DNA of 62,917 nt from Parafilimonas sp. (GTDB lineage Bacteria > Bacteroidota > Bacteroidia > Chitinophagales > Chitinophagaceae), in assembly GCA_017856455.1 (NCBI GenBank), contig JAFMEZ010000006.1:1-62917 (forward strand), read 5' to 3'. Below are positions 54,786 through 59,814 of this stretch, in pieces. The first letter of the stretch is position 1. Every line of letters begins with the position of its first letter. A program made the position numbers and the translations under genes. The notes under the pieces were generated by a model. The model did not search any database. It saw only the letters and a program-made list of their open reading frames with translations, and was not told where the DNA came from.

Positions 54786-56351
54786 TTATCTGGCCACATT
54801 TACTGCTCTTTTTTCACGAATAACGGTGACCCTGATCTGCCCTGGATAGGTCATTTCAGTCTGGATTTTCTGGGCCATTTCAAAGCTCAGTTTTTCGCTG
54901 TCTCCATCCGTTACCTTGTCGGCCTCCACAATCACGCGCAATTCTCTACCAGCCTGAATGGCATATGCTTTTTCCACTCCATTGTAGGTCATGGCAAGGT
55001 TTTCCAAATCTTTGATGCGCTGGATGTATTGCTGCATGATTTCACGGCGGGCACCCGGACGCGCTCCGCTGATGGCGTCGCATGCCTGAATAATGGGTGA
55101 AATAACATATTGCATTTCTGTCTCATCATGGTGAGCTGCAATGGCATTGACAACAGCAGGATTCTCTCCGTATTTTTCAGCCAACTTACCCCCAAGAAGA
55201 GCATGGCTCAATTCGGTTTCCTCATCAGGCACCTTTCCAATGTCATGTAAAAGTCCTGCGCGTTTGGCCAGCTTTGGATTGAGACCCAATTCCGATGCCA
55301 TGATGCCACATAGATTTGCAACCTCTCTGCTGTGCATGAGAAGGTTTTGACCATAAGATGATCTAAACCTCATCTTACCAACAATACGAACAAGCTCTTT
55401 GTGCAATCCGTGTATGCCAAGTTCGATAATGGTTCTTTCTCCAATTTCAATTACTTGCTCTTCTAATTGCTTACGTGTCTTTTCAACCACTTCTTCAATG
55501 CGGGCTGGATGGATCCTGCCATCGCTCACAAGACGCTGTAGCGATAAACGCGCAATTTCCCTTCTCAATGGGTCGAATGAGGAGAGAATGATTGCTTCGG
55601 GAGTATCATCCACTACCAAGTCAACACCAGTTGCTGCTTCAATGGCACGGATATTTCTTCCTTCTCTACCAATGATCTGCCCCTTGATTTCATCACTTTC
55701 CAGTTGAAACACTGTGACAGTGTTTTCAATGGTTTGCTCTGCAGCAGTTCTTTGGATGCTTTGGATGACGATTTTCCTTGCCTCTTTATTTGCTTTCTGG
55801 CGGGCTTCTTCAATGATTTCCTGTTGCAGAGAAAGTGCCCTGGTTTGCGCTTCTTGCTTAAGGCTTTCTATCAATTGTGCTTTTGCATCTTCTGCACTTA
55901 ATCCAGCAATTTTTTCCAGTTTACGGATATGCTCTTCCTGATGTTTTTCAAGTTCAGTCCGTTTTTGATTGACCACTTCGATCTGTCTGTTCAAATGGTC
56001 TTTAATAGAGTCATTTTCTTTGATTTGCTTATCGAGCTGTTCAGTTTTTTGGTTAATCGTTTGTTCCTTTTGCTTGATTCTGTTCTCTGCATCATTGACT
56101 TTGCGGTTTTTTTCCAAAACCTCTTTGTCATGCTCAGCCTTGAGTTGAACAAACTTTTCTTTAGCCTCCAGTAACCTTTCTTTTTTGAGATTTTCCGACT
56201 TTACATTGGCGTCTGCTAGTATTTGCTCTGCCTTTCTCTCTGCTTCCTCGATTTTTGCTTTTGAATTTTTACCGAAAATTTTACCCAAAAGGAGTCCTAA
56301 TACAATGGACACGATCCCTGTTATAATGGGTATGATGAGTTGCGATTCCAT
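54786..56351 (-). CDS. rny: Ribonuclease Y
   Basis: Membrane-anchored endoribonuclease that starts mRNA decay. 521 residues: N-terminal span ([19 protein letters not shown], near 4-22), a coiled coil from about 30 to 195 ([29 protein letters not shown] and on), a KH domain with [24 protein letters not shown] (near 230), and the HD domain with LLHDIGKV (near 363) and [11 protein letters not shown] (near 405). It sits between zapA and rplS on the same strand. Confidence 0.96.
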
Positions 56352-56429
56352 GAATAATTGTTTTTAGCTGTTTCATAATCAATCCCTTCGTATATTTTTC
56401 ATAAGGGGGCAATAGTTGACGAAGTTAAC

Positions 56430-56463
56430 AAAAAAAGCCCTAAAGCCCTCGTTAAAATTAGGG
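56430..56463 (-). terminator. Likely terminator of zapA
   Basis: On the minus strand CCCTAA directly at the zapA stop pairs with TTAGGG, closing a 14-base loop, and is followed by C and a T7 run (plus-strand A at 56430-56436). The stem is only 6 pairs, so this is less certain than the gldJ and rplS terminators. Confidence 0.55.
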
Positions 56464-56754
56464 TTACTTGCCTTGCAAGACCTTGTCAATAATTGACTCA
56501 ATCGATTGAAAATCAATGTTTGATGCATCTGATTGGGAGGAGCTATGCTGGGATGACTGTTCAGCTACAAAGGATAAGAGTACCATCGCAAGATAATCCT
56601 GCATGTCTTTTCCAGCATATTGCGATTTGTATGTGGTCAATTGGTCGTTGAGCTTTTTTGCCATTTTTCTGACGGATTCTTCTTCTGAAGCCTCAATTTT
56701 TATCCTATAGGTTCTGTCGCCAATCACAATATTTATTGGTATCAAATTTTGCAT
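56464..56754 (-). CDS. zapA: Cell division protein ZapA
   Basis: Cross-links FtsZ filaments at the division ring. 96 residues. The N-terminal beta part IPINIVIGDRTYRIKIEASEEESVRKMAKKLNDQLTTYKSQYAGKDMQDYLAMVLLSFVAE fits ZapA, the last segment being the conserved helix; the C-terminus is a serine-rich tail and a short helix. It is separated from the coiled-coil gene by 340 bases that carry a small gene on the opposite strand. Confidence 0.92.
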   Translation of the reverse strand: MQNLIPINIVIGDRTYRIKIEASEEESVRKMAKKLNDQLTTYKSQYAGKDMQDYLAMVLLSFVAEQSSQHSSSQSDASNIDFQSIESIIDKVLQGK

Positions 56755-56843
56755 TTTGTTAATTTATTTATATGTTTATACACATTTTATTCACTATCCT
56801 TCGAAGAGCCAGGTTTAATAAATCAAAAAACATTGTTTGCCAC

Positions 56844-57098
56844 ATGTTTGCCAAAACCAAAACTCCAACTTTCATCGACAACTTAACGGTTGAAATAGAT
56901 GATGTCATCTCTTCGCCATTGCATGTTGTCTTGCTTAGTGAAGATGGCAAAATATGCTGTAAAACGCAAAAGTTAATTTCCACAGCGAGTACTTCATTTT
57001 GTATAGAAGGACTCAGCGAACTGCCTTACGGTGTGTATACCTTACAATGTATTCAGGGTGATGAAATGGTGGAATGTAAAGCTGTAAAAAGAATCTAA
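56844..57098 (+). CDS. Free-standing T9SS C-terminal-domain-like small protein
   Basis: 84 residues from the ATG at 56844 (frame reaches 56772). From residue 24 on it reads like the C-terminal sorting domain of T9SS cargo: PLHVVLLSEDGKICCKTQK, then FCIEGLSELPYGVYTLQCI, then ECKAVKRI at the end, matching the usual pattern in which a strand ending in GK or GQ is followed by L-P-x-G-x-Y and a lysine-rich final strand. There is no signal peptide and no cargo before it; four cysteines are unusual for this domain. Antisense between zapA and the coiled-coil gene, overlapping the latter's end by 4 bases. It could be a cytoplasmic domain mimic or merely the same fold. Confidence 0.65.
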   Translation: MFAKTKTPTFIDNLTVEIDDVISSPLHVVLLSEDGKICCKTQKLISTASTSFCIEGLSELPYGVYTLQCIQGDEMVECKAVKRI

Positions 57099-57388
57099 TT
57101 CTGGTCGCCCAGTTGTGCAATGCACTTGTCAATTTCTTTAATGTATTCGTTGATCTTTTTTTCAAGAGCTGCCTTTGCCTCTTTGGATTCATCTGTCTCT
57201 GCCACTTTCAACATATTGAGTTGAAGTGTAAGCTGATCATTTTTTTCTTTTAGCAAACCAGCCTCATTGGCAGTTTCCTGCAATGATTTTTTTAGACGAT
57301 CGTTTTCTTTCATCAAAGCGTTATGCTTTTCTACAAGCAAAGTCAGTTTATCTTGTATTCTTTTAATATGTTCTTGAGTTGTTGACAT
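57095..57388 (-). CDS. Small coiled-coil protein (ZapB-like)
   Basis: 97 residues, almost wholly heptad-patterned coiled coil (RIQDKLTLLVEKHNALMKENDRLKKSL, then LLKEKNDQLTLQLNMLKVA and EAKAALEKKINEYIKEIDKCI). Sequence is too simple for a firm family. Position next to pheT and near zapA, common in Bacteroidota, suggests a division-ring partner of ZapA, like ZapB of E. coli. It directly follows pheT (stop/start at 57388) and shares 4 bases with the opposite-strand small gene. Confidence 0.75.
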   Translation of the reverse strand: MSTTQEHIKRIQDKLTLLVEKHNALMKENDRLKKSLQETANEAGLLKEKNDQLTLQLNMLKVAETDESKEAKAALEKKINEYIKEIDKCIAQLGDQN

Positions 57389-59814
57389 TATTTTCTGATC
57401 TCTGCCTGGAATTGTTTTTCTAATTGTAAGATAATCTTTTGCATCATTTTCTCAATCTCCTCATCTTTCATGGTTTTGGATTCATCCATAAATGTAAAAT
57501 TCATGGCAAGTGATTGTTTGTTGTTTCCAAGTTTTTCACTCTTGAATACATCAAATAGCCTGAATCCTTTAAGTTGAGGAATGGATAATGAAGATAATGT
57601 TTTTTCAATTTCTCCATAAGTCAGCTGATTGCTGGCAACGAATGATAAATCACGCTGTACTGCAGGAAATTTTGAAATCTCTTTATAGCGCAACACATGT
57701 TTTTTGGAATTTTCCACCCAGTTTTTCCAATGGATATCAGCAAACCAAACGGTAACTTTAATATCAAAGTTTTTCAATACTTGATCAGTTGGTTTTGCAA
57801 TACGAACCAGCAATTGATTATTTACTTTTCCCTCAAGCAAAACATCATATTTTTCATCACTTGCAATGGTATATACAAGTCCTGATATACCTGATTGTTG
57901 TTCCAGTGATTTGAGCACGCCTTTCAAAAAATACAGATCAGCATCTACTTCTTTGTTGTTCCAAGATGCAGATTGGATAACCCCTGTTGTGAATAAAGCA
58001 AGATGATCTTCCTCTGTATAATTGTTGTTTGAAAGCTGGTAAGTCTTTCCAAATTCAAACAACTTAAGATGTTCGTTTTTATGATTGATGTTTCTGGCAA
58101 TCGTTTCGAGTCCGGTTTCCATCATTGTTAAACGCAACATATCAAGTTCGGAGCTCAGGTTGTTCAGCATTTTTACTGCACCATTGAGTTCTGTAGCTGA
58201 ATAATGTTTGCTGTTGGTGATTGAATTGTTCAGCATTTCATCAAAGCCCATGCCGTTCAGCAGAGCAGATGTTTTTTCACGCAATGAAAAATCACTCATG
58301 CTATTTGATGCAGCAGGTGTGATGGTGATACTTGATGGGATTTCTATATTGTCAAATCCATCTATTCTCATGATTTCCTCCACCAGATCAGCTTGAATAT
58401 GTACATCTGTTTTATGGGTTGGAACTTTTAGTGTTATGCTTTCTGGGGTTTCATCCATTTTCTCAAATCCCATATCCAGCAAAATGCTTTTGATGATAGA
58501 TGACTCATATGATTTACCTGAGAGCTTTTGAACATATTTGTATTCAAGCTTTATGGTTGGTTGTACAACAGGTAATGGATATTCATCTATGATGGAAGAT
58601 TCCAGTTTCCCTCCAGCTATTTCTATGATCAGTTGTGTGGCTTTCTTTAGTACTTCTAAAGTTTCTCCGATGTCAACACTTTTTTCAAAATGCATTGCTG
58701 CATCCGTTCTGAGTTGATGACCGAATGAAGACTTTCGGATACTCACTGGATGAAACCAAGCACTTTCAAGAAATATATTCTTTGTATTTGATGAAACTCC
58801 TGAATTGAATCCACCAAATACACCGCCTATACACATCGGATTATGCTCGCCATCACAAATCATTAAATCTGAATCAAATAGTTTTCTTTCTTTTTCATCT
58901 AAGCTTTTGAAAATTGTTCCTTTAGGTAGATTTTTAACACGAATGGTTGAGCCATTTATTTTATCAGCATCAAAGGCATGCAATGGCTGTCCTGTATCAT
59001 GCAAAATATAGTTGGTAATATCTACTATTGAATTGATAGGTCTTTGTCCAATTGCTTTCAAACGCTGCTGCATCCATATTGGCGAGGATGTTATGGTAAC
59101 ATCAGCAATATAAGCACCGGCATATCTTCTACAGTCGTGTTGATTTTCAATAATTACCTTAATTGGACATGGATGATTTGCATTTGAAGAAGCAGTCTTT
59201 AATTTAATGATAGGTTTCAACGCACTTCCTTCATGGTGATTCAACCATGTACAAATATCACGGGCAACACCATAATGACTCATGGCATCACTTCTGTTTG
59301 GAGTTAATCCAACAGAGATGATATGATCTTCATAGGTATTGAAAAGCGAAGAGACTTTTATACCAACTGGTGTTTCACCAGGAAGAATTTTTATTCCGTT
59401 GTGATCAGTGCCTAATCCAATTTCATCTTCAGCACAAATCATTCCCATGCTTTCTACTCCTCTGATTTTAGCAGCCTTCATGGTAATTGGTTCGCCTGCA
59501 GTTGGATAAATGGTTGTGCCAACTGTTGCAACAATCACTTTTTGACCAACTGCTACATTGGGTGCACCACAGACAATTTGTAACGCATCACCAGATCCTG
59601 TATTCACTGTTGTAACGGAAAGTCTGTCGGCATTGGGATGTTTTTCCACTGTCAAAACTTCTCCGGTTATTAATCCTTCAAGGTTGCCCTTGATTTCCTG
59701 GTATGCTTCATATCCCTCCACTTCCAATCCAATGGAATTAAGGATCAAATTCAATTTTTCATGTGGAATAGGTTGCTGAAAATAATCCATCAACCATTTG
59801 TAAGAAATTGTCAT
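57388..59814 (-). CDS. pheT: Phenylalanyl-tRNA synthetase beta chain
   Basis: Charges tRNA-Phe with PheS. 808 residues with the normal domain order: N-terminal segments, EMAP/tRNA-binding OB fold (about 40-150; GLITGEVLTVEKHPNADRLSVTTV, IVCGAPNVAVGQKVIVATVG), B3/B4 editing domain (near 210-390), B5 (near 400-475), core (near 500-690) and the C-terminal FDX-ACB domain (SKFPAVQRDLSFVASNQLTYGEI near 720). pheS is not in this window. Upstream lies a structured-looking 191-base gap shared with dnaB. Confidence 0.96.
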   Translation of the reverse strand: MTISYKWLMDYFQQPIPHEKLNLILNSIGLEVEGYEAYQEIKGNLEGLITGEVLTVEKHPNADRLSVTTVNTGSGDALQIVCGAPNVAVGQKVIVATVGTTIYPTAGEPITMKAAKIRGVESMGMICAEDEIGLGTDHNGIKILPGETPVGIKVSSLFNTYEDHIISVGLTPNRSDAMSHYGVARDICTWLNHHEGSALKPIIKLKTASSNANHPCPIKVIIENQHDCRRYAGAYIADVTITSSPIWMQQRLKAIGQRPINSIVDITNYILHDTGQPLHAFDADKINGSTIRVKNLPKGTIFKSLDEKERKLFDSDLMICDGEHNPMCIGGVFGGFNSGVSSNTKNIFLESAWFHPVSIRKSSFGHQLRTDAAMHFEKSVDIGETLEVLKKATQLIIEIAGGKLESSIIDEYPLPVVQPTIKLEYKYVQKLSGKSYESSIIKSILLDMGFEKMDETPESITLKVPTHKTDVHIQADLVEEIMRIDGFDNIEIPSSITITPAASNSMSDFSLREKTSALLNGMGFDEMLNNSITNSKHYSATELNGAVKMLNNLSSELDMLRLTMMETGLETIARNINHKNEHLKLFEFGKTYQLSNNNYTEEDHLALFTTGVIQSASWNNKEVDADLYFLKGVLKSLEQQSGISGLVYTIASDEKYDVLLEGKVNNQLLVRIAKPTDQVLKNFDIKVTVWFADIHWKNWVENSKKHVLRYKEISKFPAVQRDLSFVASNQLTYGEIEKTLSSLSIPQLKGFRLFDVFKSEKLGNNKQSLAMNFTFMDESKTMKDEEIEKMMQKIILQLEKQFQAEIRK

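Follow-up and report, generated by a model that had tools for sequence, protein, structure and literature searches.

The 84-residue product of gene X, which lies within a 62,917-nucleotide stretch of Parafilimonas sp. DNA (the window), is homologous to the type A sorting domains of the T9SS. X is a real gene that is clearly maintained by selection. On balance we think it probable that such a sorting domain was captured once and is now a cytoplasmic binding module, which would contact a single partner through its LPYG loop and C-terminal end. The features of the locus are collected in Table 1.

Table 1 Features of the X locus in window coordinates.
Feature	Position	Strand	Remarks
rny, ribonuclease Y-like	54786..56351	-	Named from sequence; usual next gene after zapA
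zapA, cell division protein ZapA	56464..56754	-	Pfam ZapA, E 9.4e-15
Divergent control region, 89 bp	56755..56843	.	Common to zapA (left) and X (right)
TTATACACA TT TTATTCACT, two DnaA-box-like 9-mers	56776..56795	+	Direct repeat, 11-bp period, upstream of zapA
X	56844..57098	+	84 aa; free-standing homologue of T9SS type A sorting domains, lacking signal peptide and cargo
97-aa coiled-coil ORF	57095..57388	-	Convergent with X, 4-bp overlap
pheT, phenylalanyl-tRNA synthetase beta chain	57388..59814	-	Named from sequence; conserved neighbour

The preliminary description of this DNA had credited the 84-residue product with the sequence LPYGVYTLQCI, a GK turn and a lysine-containing end strand. 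All are present in the translation of the window open reading frame, where the turn reads EDGK and the last strand ends in KAVKRI. The start Met and the stop position of X are common to all 71 distinct relatives, which share the core LPYGxY...VKR[V/I]-stop. As every relative begins at this Met, an in-frame upstream ATG at 56772, which is not conserved, was rejected as the start. Identity is 49-94% with the nearer relatives and 33-42% with more distant ones, far beyond chance. Two sets of relatives gave median dN/dS values of 0.045 and 0.071, much as for zapA and the coiled-coil gene (0.055-0.113). Conservation of the frame as protein, on which the earlier reading had been made to depend, is thereby established. 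The low dN/dS, together with an overlap of only the 4 bp shared with the coiled-coil gene, led us to reject X as the shadow of another gene. A phage or plasmid origin was also set aside, there being no match in PHROGs or in phage or plasmid records, and a weak PADLOC match to PtuB (E 0.023) was put down to chance. Rfam gave no structured RNA match over 56300-57500.

Searched alone against Pfam and NCBIfam, the window protein matched no family, PF18962 and TIGR04183 included. Among 31 relatives, 11 reached E<1 with PF18962 (best E 0.0067) and 15 with TIGR04183 (best E 0.00063). Such weak matches to the two sorting-domain families occurred in relatives of X and not in the window protein itself, and X misses the curated cut-offs. 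The empty single-sequence searches would suit the alternative of a small sandwich protein that is similar to sorting domains without being related to them, which we consider very improbable on the evidence of profiles. When a profile of X was run against 298 genomes of the order, a second tier of matches, mostly to large open frames, appeared below X itself. All 29 second-tier matches inspected (9/9 and 20/20) were C-terminal T9SS type A sorting domains that ended no more than 12 residues from the stop codon and mostly carried the PNP start motif. The profile thus matches such domains specifically, and it does so over its full length and in register. A first profile-profile comparison (E 1.9e-19) was partly circular, because 9 of its 14 rows had been found with X, and it was set aside for an hhalign comparison with a set assembled independently of X, composed of sorting domains from the TIGR04183 matches of the same genome and from the PDB. 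This gave a probability of 94.9 and an E of 4.4e-8, which also argues against an unrelated sandwich. The X profile found nothing convincing among PDB sequences (best E 0.23).

The predicted structure of X (pLDDT 84, pTM 0.72) has seven strands. Its best PDB match is the C-terminal domain of mirolase (8qb1, Z 11.5, 1.6 A over 77 residues), followed by that of NucA bound in the translocon (8glk, Z 11.0, 1.9 A over 75 residues), so that both leading matches of the model are T9SS sorting domains. Other sandwiches follow from Z 9.9 down, and many of these are fibronectin III-like domains at Z 9-10, a point in favor of the unrelated-sandwich alternative. As the X sandwich is close to these common domains, the margin in Z is small and by itself weak. 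Combined with the sequence evidence, it makes common descent of X and the sorting domains likely. The relation to the sorting-domain fold proposed in the preliminary description is thus supported by profile search, hhalign and predicted structure.

The location of X is also conserved. All 51 genomes compared by tblastn have X in antisense orientation, with the coiled-coil gene on one side and zapA on the other, and its interruption of the pheT-coiled coil-zapA row from the opposite strand, first noted in the window, thus recurs in each of them. In 22 of 28 loci that lack X, zapA still has pheT and/or the coiled-coil gene as a neighbour, and at the empty site the coiled-coil gene often touches or overlaps zapA. 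The small coiled-coil ORF between pheT and zapA is conserved with or without X. It reached no curated family above its cut-off in Pfam or NCBIfam, and its score against Pfam ZapB was 15.9 bits, below the cut-off of 31.5.

X was detected in 32 of 60 relatives searched, and a scan of named records returned 18 X loci, largely from the same genomes, with titles of uncultured Chitinophagaceae, Chitinophagales or Bacteroidota. At E 1e-8 the profile matched 68 of 244 sampled Chitinophagaceae genomes (one per species, many of them incomplete bins). As the match in G415, one of the 68, comes from a large open frame alone, X is present in about 67 genomes, which belong to 30 of 101 genera, and most sampled genomes of the family are without it. 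At a threshold of E 1e-10, the 395 genomes searched from the class yielded no X outside Chitinophagaceae, and the search of the 298 genomes of the order gave only second-tier matches outside the family (lowest E 9.8e-8). When the presence of X is mapped onto an 87-row pheT tree, 9 changes are required versus 19 in shuffles, a count that does not distinguish gain from loss; at least 7 of the 9 are forced by well-supported branches. Distances for X follow those for pheT (r 0.82). One genome, G007, has a decayed X in the usual place (L118 1883-2190) with an ATA start, an early stop and LPYG changed to LLYG. The identical place, the agreement of X and pheT distances and this decayed copy favor one gain and several losses, and X was probably gained once in an ancestor of part of Chitinophagaceae. 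Its loss or decay in several lineages means that X is dispensable in those lineages.

Sorting domains are described as tags that end Sec-exported cargo (PMC10202324). X consists of its 84 residues alone and begins at the same Met in all 71 relatives with a hydrophilic, basic N-terminus in which inspection revealed no hydrophobic stretch; its earlier characterization as a stand-alone protein lacking signal peptide and cargo therefore holds. Having no signal peptide, X would stay in the cytoplasm. The PNP start motif is also missing, and the invariant positions have shifted. Tyr62 of LPYG, a variable position in sorting domains, is invariant in 71 of 71 X proteins, as is the C-terminal KR[V/I]-stop with its invariant Lys82. 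The near-C-terminal Lys of type A sorting domains is reported to be almost invariant and functionally important (PMC10994853). By our own alignment it would correspond to residue 79 of X, which is Arg in 49, Lys in 16 (the window protein among them) and Gln in 4 of the 71. This altered pattern of constraint suggests that a new contact, and not export, is what selection now maintains.

A T9SS connection could nevertheless persist if X were a regulator or decoy that mimics the cargo tag and occupies a cytoplasm-facing part of the T9SS or its signalling, or a factor that handles cargo before export. We consider this quite unlikely. X does retain the fold as well as the stretches corresponding to motifs D and E (LPxGxY and the basic last strand), and the last 22 residues of HBP35, which contain these motifs, suffice for secretion of a GFP fusion (PMC10202324), which we count in favor of a decoy. 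However, sorting domains are known to contact SprA and PorV in the pore of the outer membrane (PMC10994853), a site closed to X for want of a signal peptide, and replacement of the key Lys, mostly by Arg, also argues against mimicry. The translocon gene sprA scored above its cut-off in 101 of 102 genomes searched, nearly all of which have X, as a decoy would demand, but it is equally present in genomes of the same genera that have lost X. The presence of a T9SS hence does not explain that of X, and with sprA nearly universal, co-occurrence was discarded as an uninformative guide to T9SS dependence.

The explanation we prefer, a captured sorting domain turned cytoplasmic module, would run as follows. 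A T9SS type A sorting domain would have become an independent gene, probably once, which now lies on the opposite strand within an older pheT-coiled coil-zapA-rny row and separates the coiled-coil gene from zapA. Its product is predicted to fold as the same seven-stranded sandwich and most likely serves as a small, soluble module for binding. The divergent region shared with zapA would give rise to X and ZapA together. The invariant LPYG loop and the C-terminal Lys-Arg-[Val/Ile] end may dock onto one cytoplasmic partner, for which ZapA and the coiled-coil neighbour are purely positional candidates. In a search of mostly openly accessible papers we came across neither a sorting-domain protein of the cytoplasm nor a study of the zapA locus of X.

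A sharper form of this explanation, alike in fold and location, names the partner: X would be an accessory of division or the cell cycle that is made with ZapA and adjusts the Z-ring by binding either ZapA or the coiled-coil neighbour, perhaps with DnaA in control. We regard this as possible, though short of probable. It draws on the fixed place of X beside zapA and on the divergence of both genes from one region of 75-172 bp across loci. That place may persist through descent alone, however, and an accessory of this kind fits poorly with its repeated loss, with its absence from most genomes of the family and with the retention of pheT and/or the coiled-coil gene beside zapA in most loci that lack it. 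Additional copies of X are found in two genomes. In G407 (L135 2342-3360) zapA is flanked by one X on each side, as would suit a division partner, whereas G277 (L086 3276-3530) carries a second X away from zapA, adjoining an amidohydrolase-like gene and a putative lipoprotein gene. With pheT distances taken into account, the partial correlation of X and zapA distances was 0.25, and none of 500 permutations was as high. This value is small and close to that for zapA and the coiled-coil gene (0.28), and therefore says little.

The two 9-mers of the divergent region bear on the same proposal. They fit the DnaA box as known from E. coli, and DnaA binding here is putative. A search near the zapA start for TTWTNCACA-NN-TTWTNCACW with up to three mismatches found the pair in 45 of 70 loci with X, from several genera, and in 0 of 22 without X, a comparison confounded by the fact that many X-less loci have hardly any intergenic space. 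Several genera with X also lack the pair, which weakens its link to a division role. The strict pair is unique in the 1.94-Mb genome. In G025 (L107 1786-1859), which lacks X, unlike the rest of its clade, the repeat element is present with four mismatches. The window has no more single DnaA boxes than chance predicts (8 observed versus 13.7 expected), and a replication origin at the repeats was dismissed as unsupported, single boxes not being enriched and no clear skew switch being seen there. The fullest version of the division proposal, that a secretion tag became a cytoplasmic cell-cycle protein made with ZapA from a DnaA-box region, its LPYG loop and KR[V/I] end binding the division machinery, we consider unlikely. 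If true, a domain derived from the T9SS would now serve division.

Whatever its partner, a conserved cargo-free sorting domain without signal peptide and with invariant motifs of its own, present in about 30 genera, suggests that the domain can be reused as an independent protein. Being small and open to experiment, X offers a way into a family of proteins without a name in Pfam or NCBIfam, and it warns that a sorting-domain-like sequence need not be secreted cargo.

The closest known system is the T9SS type A sorting domain itself (PF18962, TIGR04183; solved structures 8qb1, 8glk and 8glj), with which X shares profile homology, a seven-stranded sandwich (predicted in X), the GK turn, the LPxGxY motif and a basic last strand. 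Unlike these domains, X makes up an entire protein and has neither cargo nor a signal peptide nor the PNP start motif. It has a fixed KR[V/I] end with the key Lys mostly Arg, and resides at a housekeeping locus. The same genome encodes, on contig C26 (L002 1501-1701), a product of about 110 residues that, like X, comprises little beyond a sorting domain, but has a signal-peptide-like start and scores above the TIGR04183 cut-off. The DUF3244 proteins of Bacteroides (4g5a, 3d33 and 3sd2) are also small single-domain proteins with a similar sandwich (Z 9.4-9.7). Their likeness to X is one of fold only, and neither X nor any of 31 relatives matched Pfam DUF3244 at E<1. FlgD is a flagellar protein, and its Ig-like domain (PF13860) showed a weak profile likeness to 3 of 31 X relatives; these matches were fewer and weaker than those to the sorting domains.
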